Source of the DNA: a virus
Direction: 5' to 3' (one strand)
Virus record (IMG/VR): IMGVR_UViG_3300031659_000030
Location: 1 to 37,542 of that record
DNA length: 37,542 nt
This document shows, piece after piece, positions 202 to 35,463 of the stretch. Each line of letters begins with the position of its first letter. Position 1 is the stretch's first letter. The notes beneath the pieces are model-generated. The model was given only the letters and a program-made list of their open reading frames with translations, ran no database searches and was not told where the DNA came from. A program made the position numbers and the translations under genes.

Positions 202-780
202 TTATTTTCTTAAACTATCTCCTTTCATAAAAACTACCTTGCACAATCTTCTTATTCTATCATATATTCTATCTCCGTACCTCTCCTTGATAGAACTCGC
301 ATCTAAATTAGATGTCAATAATAGTAATTTTAAATCATCTTCAGCCTCAAATATTGCATTTTCTACTGCATCTATCTTAGTCCCATAGTTATTTACAATT
401 TCTTCTGTGCCAATATCATCAATTACAATGAACGGAGTTTTGTATTCTGTAACTGTATGTAACTTCCTAGCAGGAATAGGCTTTAGTATCTTACCTATCC
501 TAGCATTGAATATCAATGGTATAACTCCTGTAAGTATTATAGACTTACCTCTACCACAGTTTCCTATCAAGAACAATCCCTTACCATCTGTATCTGACAA
601 CCAATCTATAACATTGTCATACTCAGGTAGATGCTTGTACTCTTTAATTGTTTTATCCACTAACATAAATGCTTCAATGAATAATGCTTTACACTCCTCC
701 TTACTGCCAAAGGAATATCTTTTGTAATCCCTAATATGAATGTGAGTTGCGTTCTTTAATGTTTCCTCTAGTGTTCTCAT
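202..780 (-). CDS. DnaC/IstB-like AAA+ ATPase, putative helicase loader
   Basis: A 192-residue protein with a complete small AAA+ core. The Walker A motif GNCGRGKS is at residues 73-80, Walker B FIVIDD at 117-122, a sensor-1 segment LLLTSNLD near 153-160, and an arginine-rich RYGDRIYDRIRR near 168-179 that would supply the arginine finger. This layout is that of DnaC/DnaI helicase loaders and phage relatives. They hand the replicative helicase to the origin or fork by ATP-dependent ring opening. No phage helicase or polymerase is visible, so the target is probably host DnaB. The start overlaps the stop of the upstream PD-(D/E)XK gene by four bases (ATGA), which implies translational coupling in the replication operon. 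Confidence 0.85.
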   Translation of the reverse strand: MRTLEETLKNATHIHIRDYKRYSFGSKEECKALFIEAFMLVDKTIKEYKHLPEYDNVIDWLSDTDGKGLFLIGNCGRGKSIILTGVIPLIFNARIGKILKPIPARKLHTVTEYKTPFIVIDDIGTEEIVNNYGTKIDAVENAIFEAEDDLKLLLLTSNLDASSIKERYGDRIYDRIRRLCKVVFMKGDSLRK

Positions 781-1198: not shown

Positions 1199-1822
1199 TT
1201 AAAACTTATTGTAATCCTTATTAGCTAATTCCTTTCTACCTGTCTTGTCTTTAACTGAGTTCTTTTCCCAAGTTCTAACACAGGCTCTCCAATCCTTCAT
1301 CTTTCCCTTACCAATCATCCAACCTTTACTCGCATAGAAGTCTACAAAAGTATCAGCACAGACCTTGTTTTTTCTCTCATTGCAGTATTCATGTACTTCT
1401 TCTACTGTAGGTTCCTTAAATCGCTTTATAATAGGCTTCTTTATCTCGTTAGGAAGTCCTGCTACATCAACAGGACTAATGCCTTCAATATTATACACAT
1501 CATATTTGTCTAGTGCTTTTATAACCGACTGATGAACTCTTGAATTTTCGTTTAGAGTTACATATTGGAAGTCAATAAAACTAGGGATGAACCATTTATT
1601 ACCTCCATCAAATATCTTTATCTGACTAGCCATTACTGTTACAGCTTCAGCTTCTGTTATCTTACTTCCTATTCTAATAGATGCTACCTCAAAATCAGTT
1701 TCCCATATTCCTGCGTGTGTGCAATCATCTAATATATAGAGCCAAAGTAGTTTGTATTTAGGAGCTAGTCCTCTCATAAAACCTTTCTTCCATTTATCTG
1801 AGTCTGTCATTCTTTTTGCCAT
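1199..1822 (-). CDS. Putative phage replication initiation protein (DnaD-like region at C-terminus)
   Basis: From the ATG at 1820-1822 the product has 207 residues. It begins MAKRMTDSDKWKKGFMRGLA, then KLLWLYILDDCTHAGIW, a winged-helix-like N-terminal domain frequent in replication proteins of Bacteroidota phages. The C-terminal part (PTVEEVHEYC, then FYASKGWMIGKGKMKDWRAC) resembles the helical DNA-binding tail of phage DnaD-type initiators. An upstream GTG at 1924 would add 34 residues, but it would sit about 12 bases from the promoter start point and the extension crosses a hairpin, so I prefer the ATG. The neighbours (SSB-tail protein, PD-(D/E)XK, DnaC-like loader) fit a replication operon. 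The role is inferred from family resemblance, not from a catalytic motif. Confidence 0.7.
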   Translation of the reverse strand: MAKRMTDSDKWKKGFMRGLAPKYKLLWLYILDDCTHAGIWETDFEVASIRIGSKITEAEAVTVMASQIKIFDGGNKWFIPSFIDFQYVTLNENSRVHQSVIKALDKYDVYNIEGISPVDVAGLPNEIKKPIIKRFKEPTVEEVHEYCNERKNKVCADTFVDFYASKGWMIGKGKMKDWRACVRTWEKNSVKDKTGRKELANKDYNKF

Positions 1823-2263: not shown

Positions 2264-2719
2264 TTATTTATTATTAATTATTAATTCTTTTTCTATTCTG
2301 TTTGCTTTAATGAATAGCACTTCTATTTGGTTCTCTATCTCTATCTTTTCTTTATTAAGGGATTCTATCCTTTCTTCTAGCTCTTCCTTAGTTTCTCCTT
2401 CTAGCATAATAGTCTTAACATTATTGTATCTTGTTCTCTCTGAGCGATACACACTTGTATACCTCTCGTGAGCTTTTAAAGATGCTATTACTGTGGAATG
2501 GTCTTGATTAGTTTCCTTTCCTATGTCTAGAAGTTTGTAAAAAAATACATTTCTTAGTATTGCATAATAACATCTTCGAGCTTCTACTAATTCGTGTAGT
2601 CTACTCTTGCTTGCTATTGCCTGCCAATTAACTCTATATTCCTCACAAATGATTCTCTTGAGTTTATCGTGCCTCACATTAGTCATTTTAACGGAAGTGC
2701 TAGGTACTGTCTTATTCAT
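2264..2719 (-). CDS. DnaA domain IV-like DNA-binding protein with C-terminal coiled coil
   Basis: 151 residues. Residues about 17-88 match the DNA-binding domain IV of DnaA: SKSRLHELVEARR (37-49) corresponds to the basic loop and helix, and DHSTVIAS (73-80) to the DnaA signature helix (DHTTVxHA) that reads DnaA boxes. The AAA+ domain of DnaA is absent. Residues about 108-146 are a charged, heptad-like coiled coil rich in Glu and Lys, which would allow dimerisation. It overlaps the upstream XRE-like gene by eight bases and precedes the SSB-tail gene. It may bind DnaA-box-like or phage iteron sites to start replication, or compete with host DnaA. Domain assignment is strong; function is inferred. 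Confidence 0.8.
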   Translation of the reverse strand: MNKTVPSTSVKMTNVRHDKLKRIICEEYRVNWQAIASKSRLHELVEARRCYYAILRNVFFYKLLDIGKETNQDHSTVIASLKAHERYTSVYRSERTRYNNVKTIMLEGETKEELEERIESLNKEKIEIENQIEVLFIKANRIEKELIINNK

Positions 2720-3020
2720 AACTATTAGTTGCTAAAGATTCAACTGCCTTAAAATCCCCTTCTCCTTCAACTACAATCATCTCGCCTTTTAAATCAACTT
2801 CTATAATATCTATAATATCCTTGACATTAACATTTAAAAATTGTGCAAGTCTTTGCATCTGAAAGTATCTTAGGAAGTACGGGTTGTCTAAATACTTCTC
2901 TATAGTCGAGCCTTTAATATTTAATATCCTTCCAAATCTCTGTTTAGATATGCCTCTTATTCTGAGGATTGCCTCAAGTTCGTTTCTTGAAGTTCTTACT
3001 TTATCATAATCATTTTTCAT
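2712..3020 (-). CDS. XRE-like helix-turn-helix protein
   Basis: 102 residues. Residues about 12-66 form a lambda-repressor-like HTH: RNELEAILRIRGISKQRFGR, then LNIKGSTIEKYLDNP, then QMQRLAQFLNVNVKDIIDII. The segment from ISKQRFGR to the recognition helix and the closing LNV-KDI are typical of Cro/C1-type regulators. A variable acidic C-terminus (GEMIVVEGEGDFKAVE) follows, too short for a LexA-like peptidase, so self-cleavage is not expected. It sits in the early operon and overlaps the DnaA-domain-IV-like gene by eight bases. It is a candidate regulator of the shared repeat arrays near 4106 and 31995. With no integrase seen, a role in lysogeny is not supported. Confidence 0.65.
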   Translation of the reverse strand: MKNDYDKVRTSRNELEAILRIRGISKQRFGRILNIKGSTIEKYLDNPYFLRYFQMQRLAQFLNVNVKDIIDIIEVDLKGEMIVVEGEGDFKAVESLATNSYE

Positions 3021-3285: not shown

Positions 3286-3469
3286 ATTCTTTTATTTTTT
3301 TAATGATTTCATCTGCCTCAATATCGTTTATTTCGCCTAGAGAGTTGAAGATGTTTTGCTGTTCGTCAGAGCATAGTGCTGTCTTATGTAAGAGGTTCTC
3401 AATGTATCCTATCTTCCAAAGCATTGCTTCTTTAGGCTGTCCATCAAGAACCTCATCCATCCAATCCAT
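3209..3469 (-). CDS. Hypothetical acidic early protein, 86 residues
   Basis: No family recognised. It starts at an ATG that shares a base with the stop of the upstream gene (3469-3993), a tight arrangement that supports it being real. It begins MDWMDEVLDGQPKEAM and is predicted mostly helical, with an acidic middle (EINDIEADEIIKKIKEYEIK). There are no Cys pairs, membrane segments or catalytic motifs. It lies between the putative annealing protein and a small unknown in the early operon. Confidence 0.55.
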   Translation of the reverse strand: MDWMDEVLDGQPKEAMLWKIGYIENLLHKTALCSDEQQNIFNSLGEINDIEADEIIKKIKEYEIKTDPQDQYEEMHKNGMFSDKCI

Positions 3470-3993
3470 TAGTCAGCCATTTCGTCTTGACCGAATACTC
3501 CTTGCTCGTAGAATCCTGCAATCTTTAATACAACTCTACTCATAGCTCTTTTCTCAGCCATAGCTACAGGGAATTTCTTAGCACCTCCCATTAAGTTAGA
3601 ATCTGAAGCTTCTCCGAAACTCATCATATTTCTAATGTCGTGTTCTCCTGTTCCTGTTCTCATACTAGCAGTAGCTCTTAACACTACCCAATCAGGAGTC
3701 ATTGTAATAGGCTCGTAAGCCACTTGAATGTTTTGTCTAGAAACAATCTTATCTATTCCTGACCTCTTGATAATCACAAAACCTCTTGGGTCTTTATGAA
3801 CATCTTCTTTTACTAAACCATTCGCCAAGAATAATCTCTTTAATGTTTCTTCTTTGGTTTCTTTTACCATAACTGCTTCTTCTGAATTTACTTTTTTCAC
3901 TTTATTATTGATTTGATTAATACTCTGTTTTGGTTGTAAGTTGTATTGCATCTCTTCCTGCATCTGCATATACTCTTCTTTCATTCTTCCCAT
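3469..3993 (-). CDS. Conserved phage early protein, possible ssDNA-annealing/recombination protein
   Basis: 174 residues. The N-terminal 45 or so are Gln/Asn/Lys-rich and probably disordered. The conserved core runs from about 48: a segment DWVVLRATASMRTGTGEHDI, then KKFPVAMAEKRAMSRVVLKI and AGFYEQGVFGQDE. A strand-rich half followed by a helix with AEKRA-x-R at the end is common in phage ssDNA-annealing and early recombination proteins (Rad52-like/Sak types). I cannot place it in a named family with certainty. It is the first gene after the promoter at 4020-4051 and leads the replication operon, which fits a DNA-metabolism role. It could also be a phage single-strand-binding accessory protein. 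Confidence 0.5.
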   Translation of the reverse strand: MGRMKEEYMQMQEEMQYNLQPKQSINQINNKVKKVNSEEAVMVKETKEETLKRLFLANGLVKEDVHKDPRGFVIIKRSGIDKIVSRQNIQVAYEPITMTPDWVVLRATASMRTGTGEHDIRNMMSFGEASDSNLMGGAKKFPVAMAEKRAMSRVVLKIAGFYEQGVFGQDEMAD

Positions 3994-4019: not shown

Positions 4020-4051
4020 CAAATAAACAATTAATTTATTAACCTACCAAA
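4020..4051 (-). promoter_or_regulatory. Early promoter (TTTG-N21-TTATTTG)
   Basis: On the minus strand TTTG (4051-4048, in AGTTTGGTAGG) is followed after 21 bases by TTATTTG (4026-4020) and CATA. This resembles the Bacteroidota -33/-7 consensus and the promoter at 1942-1972. The start would lie about 20 bases before the ATG at 3993. The hexamer array (4106-4160) lies about 55 bases farther upstream. AGTTTSGTAGG also occurs upstream of the packaging operon (31950-31960). Confidence 0.55.
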
Positions 4052-4105
4052 CTATTTACAATGTTTTTTTAAAATAATGTTAGAAAATGTGATATTTAAC
4101 CTAGT

Positions 4106-4160
4106 CTTTATCTTTAACCTTAGCTTTATCTTTGTCTTTAGCTTTATCTTTAATGGTATA
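4106..4160. repeat. Hexanucleotide array CTTTNN x8 ending in TGGTATA
   Basis: Eight consecutive 6-bp units occupy 4106-4153: CTTTAT, CTTTAA, CCTTAG, CTTTAT, CTTTGT, CTTTAG, CTTTAT, CTTTAA, followed by TGGTATA (4154-4160). A six-unit version with the same terminal CTTTATCTTTAATGGTATA lies at 31995-32037. It is upstream of the early promoter on the minus strand. An iteron-like protein-binding array or activator site is the best reading. Confidence 0.8.
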
Positions 4161-4174
4161 GAACACCATTAGTT

Positions 4175-4206
4175 AAGGGTTTATAAAGGGTTTATAAAGG
4201 GTTTAA
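4175..4206. repeat. 11-bp tandem repeat (AAGGGTTTATA, about 2.9 copies)
   Basis: AAGGGTTTATA is at 4175-4185 and 4186-4196, with a partial third copy at 4197-4206. The 11-bp period places each copy on nearly the same face of the helix. Two AAGGGTA motifs, also 11 bp apart but on the opposite strand, lie at 32041-32060 beside the second hexamer array. Confidence 0.7.
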
Positions 4207-31923: not shown

Positions 31924-31960
31924 CAAATAAAGTAAAATATTTGATATATCCTACGAAACT
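31924..31960 (-). promoter_or_regulatory. Putative promoter of the packaging operon
   Basis: On the minus strand AGTTTCGTAGG (31960-31950) and TTATTTG (31930-31924) repeat two elements of the early promoter at 4020-4053, where they read AGTTTGGTAGG and TTATTTG. The spacer between the -33-like and -7-like parts is about three bases longer (24), so this may need an activator. The hexamer array begins 34 bases upstream. Confidence 0.45.
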
Positions 31961-31994
31961 TTAGGAAATTTTATTAACTATGCTTTATTCATAT

Positions 31995-32037
31995 CTTTAG
32001 CTTTGTCTTTATCTTACTCTTTATCTTTAATGGTATA
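31995..32037. repeat. Second hexanucleotide array ending in TGGTATA
   Basis: Six 6-bp units occupy 31995-32030: CTTTAG, CTTTGT, CTTTAT, CTTACT, CTTTAT, CTTTAA, followed by TGGTATA. The last 19 bases are identical to those of the array at 4106-4160. The array lies about 100 bases upstream of the packaging operon start codon, as the first array does for the early operon (about 110). Confidence 0.8.
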
Positions 32038-32040
32038 ACA

Positions 32041-32060
32041 TACCCTTAGGATACCCTTTA
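32041..32060. repeat. 11-bp spaced ACCCTT motifs
   Basis: TACCCTTAGGA is followed by TACCCTTTA, two ACCCTT motifs 11 bp apart. They are the reverse complement of the AAGGGT units at 4175-4206 and have the same spacing. A single further AAAGGGTAT lies near 32647. A protein-binding site beside the array is likely. Confidence 0.5.
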
Positions 32061-32669
32061 ATTCTTTTCCATATAGATTATTCTACCCCATACTTATTCA
32101 ATTCCCATTCCAAATTTTTTTATAATTTTTTTTTACTTCCAAAAACTGCCGAATAATCAATTTAATTTACTATACCTTTGTATTCCTTAGAATATACTGT
32201 TGCTCATATCGCAACTAGCATATTTAATAACCTTCACACTTAAAATACATATTATGTTTAAATTCAAGATTGGTAACGTCTATATACAACTTATCCCATT
32301 CAAGATTACTTGGAAGTTCTAATACCTAATATAATATATCTTTATGAAATTGGATTTAGATTTCTTGTTTGTGTGTGTGGATGCTCAATATACGCAAATC
32401 TCAAAAGTCGCGTTTTTCGTCCTCAACTCCTGAAATATTCCAAAAAATACGGTTTTTCTTTCTAATTCTTCAGATTAATGATTAAAATAACAATTGTTAA
32501 CATCTTTTTAGTAGATTCTGCGTGTAAGAAGGCATAAAAAACTGCTATATAACTAAGCTATTTAAAAATAAATTGCAAAAGGATAAAGAAATTTAACATC
32601 CTATTAATAAGAATAACAAAAATATTATTGTTATAGTATAATCGTTAAAGGGTATTTTATCGAATTGAT
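32061..32669. other. Gene-poor spacer
   Basis: About 600 bases without a convincing minus-strand gene. It holds poly-T stretches (32116-32133), two short plus-strand frames (32254-32322 and 32344-32433), a GTGTGTGTGG stretch, a local GC rise near 32408-32432, and an AT-only inverted repeat ATAACAA/TTGTTAT (32613-32634). No tRNA or strong terminator is visible. It may hold a small RNA or be a control region. Confidence 0.4.
32254..32322 (+). CDS. Possible 22-residue plus-strand peptide
   Basis: ATG at 32254 opens MFKFKIGNVYIQLIPFKITW and ends with a TAA after two more residues. An A-rich leader (TTAAAATACATATT) precedes the ATG, like the leaders of other genes here. It would be the only plus-strand gene. 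Length alone makes it uncertain, and there is no known family. Confidence 0.2.
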   Translation: MFKFKIGNVYIQLIPFKITWKF

Positions 32670-32966
32670 TCATATAATACAATTATTTCCCTCTTCATCT
32701 GTACTAAAGTGGCTTATATTATCCTCATAGTATGCACTAAATACTTCTTTCACTTGTCTGCCTTGTCTATTTGTGAACCCATATTCGAACAAAAACAAAC
32801 CGTTTACTTTCTTATTTTCTATCATAAAAAAGAAAATGTCAACCGCTTTAACTTTATATTGTTTTGCTGTTTGCCTTGCTGCATATATTAAGCGGCTTAT
32901 ATCGTGTCTGATTGTTCCGTATTGGCTCAGGTGCTGCCGTGCTTGGTGTTCTGTTAAATTTATCAT
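32670..32966 (-). CDS. Hypothetical accessory protein, 98 residues
   Basis: It opens MINLTEHQARQHLSQYGTIR and continues with SRLIYAARQTAKQYKVKAVD, FFFMIENKKVNGLFLFEYGF and TNRQGRQVKEVFSAYYEDNI. A helical start followed by strands suggests a small globular protein. No catalytic motif is seen. It is the last gene of the accessory module and follows the GP88-like gene directly, with no gap. Family not recognised. Confidence 0.6.
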   Translation of the reverse strand: MINLTEHQARQHLSQYGTIRHDISRLIYAARQTAKQYKVKAVDIFFFMIENKKVNGLFLFEYGFTNRQGRQVKEVFSAYYEDNISHFSTDEEGNNCII

Positions 32967-35008: not shown

Positions 35009-35042
35009 CAAAGATACAAATAAATTTGATATACAATACAAA
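35009..35042 (-). promoter_or_regulatory. Promoter of the accessory module (TATCTTTG -7)
   Basis: On the minus strand TATCTTTG (35016-35009) is followed four bases later by the ATG (35004-35002). A -33 element could be ATTG (17-base spacer) or TTTG (35042-35039, 22-base spacer). The short distance to the start implies a leaderless transcript, as at 5298-5328. Confidence 0.5.
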
Positions 35043-35280
35043 TAATTTATAAATGTTTACAAATATGCTAGTTTATAATGATTCTAAATAAGGATAATTT
35101 ATGTATATATAGACCGCGTGTAATAAAATAATCCATTTAAAAAAGTAATTCAATAGAAAGTTATTAACAATAAAAATAAATGCTTTTTTGTTTGGTCAAT
35201 TCAAAAAATTTGATATAAAAAACAATTTAACATAATATATATTATGTTAAGTTTAGAATGATTCTAAATAAGGAAAAATT
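35023..35280. repeat. Imperfect ~180-bp direct duplication
   Basis: Two copies start with AATTTGATATA (35023 and 35208) and end with GTTTAKAATGATTCTAAATA then AGGA (35071-35094 and 35251-35274). The AATGATTCTAAATAAGGA blocks lie exactly 180 bp apart. The core TTTAGAAT-G-ATTCTAAA in copy 2 is a perfect inverted repeat; copy 1 has one change. Operator or origin sites are the likely role. Confidence 0.75.
35227..35250. repeat. Perfect 24-bp palindrome
   Basis: Arms TTAACATAATAT and ATATTATGTTAA form a perfect 24-bp palindrome, immediately before the second AATGATTCTAAATA block. It could bind a dimeric repressor or extrude as a cruciform at an origin. Confidence 0.75.
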
Positions 35281-35308
35281 GCTCTTTATGCCCTATGCAA
35301 CATCCCTA

Positions 35309-35355
35309 GCAGTTTCAGGCAGTTTCAGCAGTTTCAACGGATTTGGCAGTTTCAG
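35309..35355. repeat. Iteron-like GCAGTTTCAR repeats (x4)
   Basis: GCAGTTTCAG occurs at 35309-35318, 35319-35328 and 35346-35355, with GCAGTTTCAA at 35328-35337. The first three starts are spaced 10 and 9 bases apart, and the fourth 18. They are followed by a nearly G/C-free A-rich tract (about 35370-35430). Iterons beside an AT-rich unwinding stretch are typical of origins. Confidence 0.7.
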
Positions 35356-35463
35356 GAAAATTTAAGAAAATGTTTTTCAAAAAATAAAAATAAAAATAAA
35401 TTTAAAAAATAAAATTTAAAAATAAAAAGAACTGAATAAAAATATTAATCAGCTTAATGAGTA
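35356..35463. other. A-rich tract, possible DNA unwinding element
   Basis: From about 35370 to 35430 the plus strand is nearly all A with scattered T (AAAATAAAAATAAAAAT-like). No gene is seen. With the adjacent iterons and palindrome it fits a DNA unwinding element. On the minus strand it follows the stop of the HTH gene at 35464 and could also support transcript ending. Confidence 0.4.

Follow-up and report, generated by a model that had tools for sequence, protein, structure and literature searches.

The replication origin of phage lambda lies inside gene O. Dimers of the O protein on neighbouring repeats build a higher-order complex (PMC3985674). Phage SPP1 has two origins, oriL and oriR, which are bound by G38P, one located inside gene 38 and one intergenic in the late segment. 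SPP1 oriR was proposed to stall forks and to trigger concatemer synthesis, and the SPP1 initiator gene lies with that of a helicase loader (PMC6316719, PMC3485210). In oriV of RK2, iterons adjoin an AT-rich region that contains 13-mers of its own, which are bound single-stranded by the Rep protein TrfA (PMC4081077). In the DnaA-box and DnaA-trio system (BUS), double-stranded initiator sites adjoin a short, strand-specific repeated motif (PMC8287927).

Two distant sites of similar build, at 4106-4205 and 31995-32058, were identified in the window, i.e. the whole stretch of 37,542 nucleotides that was analysed. The two arrays are best explained as two copies of a phage replication origin bound by the phage's own initiator (1199-1924), a reading that was given a probability of about three in four. 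Every large gene of the window phage is on the minus strand and the array is therefore best read on that strand. The features referred to below are the following:

202-780, minus strand: DnaC-like helicase loader, just downstream of the initiator (phrog_3277, E=8.7e-20)
1199-1822, minus strand: replication initiator MAKRMTDSDKWKK..., the proposed binder, whose N-terminal domain follows the array
3469-3993, minus strand: first gene after the early array, annealing-protein-like according to a preliminary description of this DNA
4020-4051, minus strand: early promoter-like element TTTGGTAG-N16-TTTATTTG of the Bacteroidota type; a like element is found there in relatives
4040-4105, no strand assigned: AT-rich stretch of low duplex stability from the array to the early promoter; candidate unwinding region
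4106-4153, minus strand: early hexamer array of the (AAAGAT)8 type, kept in relatives
4152-4170, minus strand: early dyad AATGGTGTTCTATACCATT, AGGGTAT-N3-ATACCCT in relatives, with covariation
4175-4205, minus strand: three half-sites, ACCCTT on this strand, in 11-bp phase (TRF)
31924-31959, minus strand: late promoter-like element AGTTTCGTAGG-N-TTTATTTG, kept in relatives
31995-32030, minus strand: late hexamer array of six units (by sequence)
32029-32047, minus strand: late dyad AAGGGTATGTTATACCATT (read from its letters)
32053-32058, minus strand: late upstream half-site, 11 bp off the dyad half-site (by phasing)

SPP1 was likened to the window by layout, not by sequence. The window likewise has two distant sites with repeats and AT-rich DNA, and its initiator gene is likewise adjoined by a helicase loader gene. 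In contrast to SPP1, neither window copy is inside the initiator gene; the linker of the window initiator carries no array and both arrays are intergenic instead, while other phages whose initiator has this N-terminal domain do have an in-gene site. The window sites are built from 11-bp half-sites, a dyad and hexamers, and SPP1 encodes its own DnaB-type helicase, whereas none was identified in the window by a search that was not exhaustive. As in lambda, iterons adjoined by an AT-rich region are found within the linker of the initiator gene itself in many relatives, and the sister initiators that lack the array match an O-like family. Lambda differs in having one origin with four 19-bp iterons, and the proposed DNA-binding (N-terminal) domain of the window initiator matched no family in Pfam, NCBIfam or PHROGs, replication initiator families included, which sets it apart from the lambda O type. 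Iterons adjoining an AT-rich region with its own repeats are common to RK2 oriV and the window, but the RK2 repeats are 13-mers, the Rep protein is unrelated and DnaA boxes are present. As in BUS, the half-sites adjoin a short repeat track; unlike BUS, the unit is 6 and not 3 nucleotides long, there are no DnaA boxes at the arrays and the initiator gave no AAA+ domain match.

The composite consists of AGGGT/ACCCT half-sites at exact 11-bp steps, the dyad AGGGTAT-N3-ATACCCT, (AAAGAT)n and AT-rich DNA, a layout of helically phased direct or inverted repeats adjoining AT-rich DNA as in iteron origins. In the early copy, the order from 5' to 3' on the minus strand is half-sites, dyad, hexamers, AT-rich DNA, promoter-like element and the start codon at 3993. 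Positions 4106-4153 read CTTTAT, CTTTAA, CCTTAG, CTTTAT, CTTTGT, CTTTAG, CTTTAT and CTTTAA, with exact CTTT in seven of eight units. They are directly followed at 4154-4160 by TGGTATA, which is one half of the dyad, and the AAGGGT repeats at 4175, 4186 and 4197 are phased half-sites of the same dyad. The late units at 31995-32030 read CTTTAG, CTTTGT, CTTTAT, CTTACT, CTTTAT and CTTTAA (exact CTTT in five of six), then TGGTATA.

The preliminary description had pointed to both hexamer arrays, to 11-bp repeats beside the early one, to an identical 19-base end and to matched distances from the start codons, and all of these were confirmed. In-phase AAAG units numbered seven in the early array (eight hexamers) and six in the late array, compared to a maximum of four in 60 Markov windows; the arrays were far above chance in Markov windows and shuffles and are kept in related phages. 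TRF reported a period of 11 with 100% match for the AAGGGT repeats. The 19-mer common to both arrays, CTTTATCTTTAATGGTATA, occurs exactly twice in the window, against an expectation of 0.03 in shuffles with up to three mismatches allowed. The distance to the start codon was 113 bp for the early array (3993) and 103 bp for the late array (31892). A family search with the gene at 3469-3993 gave no match. The AT-rich stretch beyond the early array ranked at the 95-99th percentile for low duplex stability within the window, and such low stability is equally expected of promoters. The GC skew across the window was uniform and thus uninformative on the origin. The promoter style, which is the one clue to the host, suggests a member of the Bacteroidota.

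Some further observations were made on intergenic DNA of the window. About 600 bp upstream of the late array (32060-32670) are without a convincing gene. After the late array, the segment ATGAATAAAGACAGGTTAATAAAATTTC is kept (31950-32018 in the window and late sites of relatives); it could encode a peptide of 4-24 codons, variable in length, and may be a leader or a portion of the promoter region. A short conserved peptide, MVFYTIKDKAKDK..., was rejected as a gene because its start codon varies across relatives. The least stable DNA of the window is an AT-rich intergenic region with many repeats at 35010-35460.

The array was looked for in related phages, as the preliminary description had suggested, and was found at the homologous early or late place in 10 of the 11 IMG/VR contigs with the exact 19-mer; the match in L006 was unrelated and due to chance. 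Relatives identified by the neighbouring gene and the terminase have the composite at both the early and the late place, with a varying number of hexamers. The number of sites per genome ranged from one to three in relatives. Close relatives also have sites on both sides of the initiator gene, at about 2-4.6 kb before it and 5-8 kb beyond it, and the strand was the same in every case. L032-L050, in which the neighbouring gene is more distantly related, gave no composite; there the promoter comes straight after an exonuclease-like gene. A strict composite pattern matched viral contigs 28 times, whereas 257 Gb of genome contigs gave no match. Most of the viral matches were in frame inside one gene family, in the linker of a replication-protein gene, and the window ORF 1199-1924 is a member of this gene family, without the array in its own linker. 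No isolate of the window phage was found by a near-identity search.

In frame, (AAAGAT)n reads KDKDKD, and most intergenic copies are open in that frame. The array could accordingly be taken as Lys-Asp linker codons of the initiator, i.e. a repeat maintained at the protein level, and the intergenic copies as gene debris. The 11-bp phasing is, however, not a multiple of three, and the half-sites are found in either orientation. In 67 non-redundant sites, 106 of the 110 AGGGT/ACCCT words upstream of the dyad were at exactly -11, -22, -33 or -44, in either orientation. The dyad was furthermore found to covary, its arms being 79% complementary in 87 distinct dyads (shuffles: 67.5% +/- 1.1), and pair 6/12 of the dyad shows swaps from A-T to T-A. 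A separate dyad count in 40 sites agreed, and slid registers scored far lower. The position of the intergenic copies is conserved in many phages, and stops interrupt the frame in some of the copies; in L142 the hexamer track moves from the KD to the IK reading while the DNA repeat is kept. Because of the 11-bp phasing and the dyad covariation, the reading as a KD linker only was rejected; it is largely refuted and extremely improbable. Hexamers (at least three in phase) were observed in 57 of 58 in-gene linkers of the third family branch (L337-L395), compared to 16 of 1373 control windows.

The dyad could alternatively form a hairpin in RNA, with a 7-bp stem and a 3-nt loop, and act together with the following AAAGAU repeats in read-through or leader transcripts. 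It is always on the coding strand, and in some cases (L051 type) the copy is part of a leader. Both window copies are nevertheless upstream of promoter-like elements, an RNA hairpin has no use for phased half-sites that stay unpaired, and there is no U-run; an RNA element is considered highly improbable.

L142 (11946-12763) is an initiator relative with an inserted HNH endonuclease domain, in which the dyad is present three times, with 33-bp spacing, before the hexamers. In Pseudanabaena phage Pan5, an isolated cyanophage (L257, 12007-12813), the N-terminal domain is 52-56% identical and the protein is annotated as hypothetical; the DNA of the Pan5 linker has a G-rich dyad and then AAAGAT-type hexamers.

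Co-occurrence of the site and the initiator domain was studied across 40 phage contigs, the window among them, that gave a match to the initiator; these contigs are not necessarily whole genomes. The comparison began with 16 near-whole contigs and was extended to 32 further contigs, with a calibrated sequence model (R1). The composite was present in 19 of 19 contigs with the initiator N-terminal domain, 18 by model R1 or direct scan and one diverged copy by eye, and in 0 of 21 contigs with an unrelated N-terminal domain, where the C-terminal domain alone is in common. The diverged copy (G032) has AAGAGT..ACTCTT, then AAAGAT hexamers, at the same place, and L198 is similar; L216, missed by the first scan, has a dyad with a longer spacer. 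Among the 16 near-whole contigs, one to three sites were found in all that have the N-terminal domain and none in the four with another domain, and of 22 window proteins and domains the N-terminal domain was the only one in perfect agreement with site presence. The terminase tree needs a single change for site and domain, and therefore the 19 of 19 versus 0 of 21 do not represent many independent events; many independent gains of the site were rejected for this reason. G012 and G016 are a separate, second case of the association, with N-terminal domain and site inside the initiator gene and none of the 20 other tested window proteins in common.

The same comparison bears on which protein binds the site. 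A dedicated binding protein and, as an alternative, a bipartite origin had been proposed in the preliminary description, and both ideas are favoured by these results, the composite tracking the initiator N-terminal domain; the proteins named as candidates are not. An XRE-like protein (2712-3020 in the window) is encoded by G001, G009, G010 and G014, which lack the site, and is absent from G012 and G016, which have it. The DnaA-IV-like protein is patchy among relatives, and the three TTWTNCACA DnaA boxes in the window are not near either array. The latter protein (2264-2719, minus strand) is a stand-alone DnaA domain IV-like protein of the early operon (PF08299, E=3e-12). The late copy precedes the gene of the terminase large subunit by about 1 kb, which would suit a partition, packaging or other structural site for another phage protein. 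G012 and G016, however, have the site without a terminase match to the window, the gene that harbours the in-gene copy is a replication gene and the second copy of the window is at the early operon; a structural site is thus very unlikely.

Four sisters without the array were examined in detail. All have an unrelated N-terminal domain, and the one that was scanned contains HTH_36 and matched phrog_19658, 'replication initiation protein' (3.9e-29). Different repeats of 23-24 bp are present in their initiator linkers. The other domain together with other linker repeats is what would be predicted from an N-terminal domain that determines the origin sequence. A tandem repeat, CTTAAAGGGGG(G)TATTAAAGAAAA, was observed inside the initiator gene of L223 (7328-7960), L239, L241 and L249, which have an unrelated N-terminal domain; it is likely an origin of another specificity.

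The initiator ORF has an alternative upstream GTG start at 1924. Its C-terminal domain is common to phage proteins, some of which are annotated as replication initiation protein, and matched only PHROGs families of unknown function. A search with the N-terminal domain gave more than 500 viral-contig relatives among the matches listed. In bacterial genomes, where the peptide patterns included the low-complexity KDKD, two distant partial relatives were found among the matches listed. One bacterial MAG contig has a 34% identical domain and, in the linker, a DKDKDK reading of the hexamer track. A PDB sequence search with the initiator gave no credible match and no solved relative. The AlphaFold2 model was poor and, with a pLDDT of 54, unusable.

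Both window copies are 60-110 bp upstream of promoter-like elements, and the copies in three-site genomes include one upstream of a holin-like gene and one upstream of a third promoter-like element. The presence of as many as three sites in one genome, mostly close to promoters, is also compatible with regulation. The composite might thus be an operator through which the early and late operons are controlled, either by the initiator or by a different phage protein, with replication starting elsewhere, and a dyad with phased half-sites would suit a repressor as well. The distance to the promoter is not fixed, however: it varies from 60-110 bp upstream to a holin-side copy touching the start codon and in-gene copies without a promoter, and the associated partner is a replication protein. 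An operator in place of an origin is therefore unlikely. The varying spacing and the in-gene copies without a promoter make a pure promoter element less likely, and the variable position is easier to reconcile with an origin than with a promoter element. Origin and regulatory roles of the composite may coexist.

For the two copies as origins, the following mechanism can be proposed. The initiator N-terminal domain would bind AGGGT half-sites one helical turn (11 bp) apart, ending in the dyad. The assembled complex would then open the AT-rich DNA on the far side of the dyad, which contains the (AAAGAT)n track; in this view the composite would have two parts, iterons recognised as double strand and a hexamer track at which the DNA is unwound. 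Together with the DnaC-like loader (202-780), the initiator would load the host helicase. Binding and strand opening at or beyond the hexamers are proposed by analogy with the SPP1, lambda, TrfA and DnaA-trio origins. The early copy would be the main origin, and the late copy could be a second origin or, as suggested for SPP1 oriR, a fork barrier switching replication to concatemers.

More tentatively, a new class of phage initiator can be imagined. In such a class, a domain unknown to the curated libraries searched would read half-sites phased by one turn, in either orientation, and then extend along a 6-nt track of one strand to open the duplex, as a hexamer counterpart of the DnaA-trios. 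The origin would relocate between initiator gene and intergenic DNA, with an extra copy as a programmed barrier to forks that brings about the switch to concatemers. This wider proposal is possible but doubtful.

With the two-origin reading, a large group of uncultured phages gains an origin and an initiator that can be tested, and a likely function is provided for an unannotated protein domain and for PHROGs of unknown function. The phages also offer a natural series of origins, in-gene or relocated and single or multiple, for studying how a phage initiator reads phased double-strand sites together with a short repeat track.
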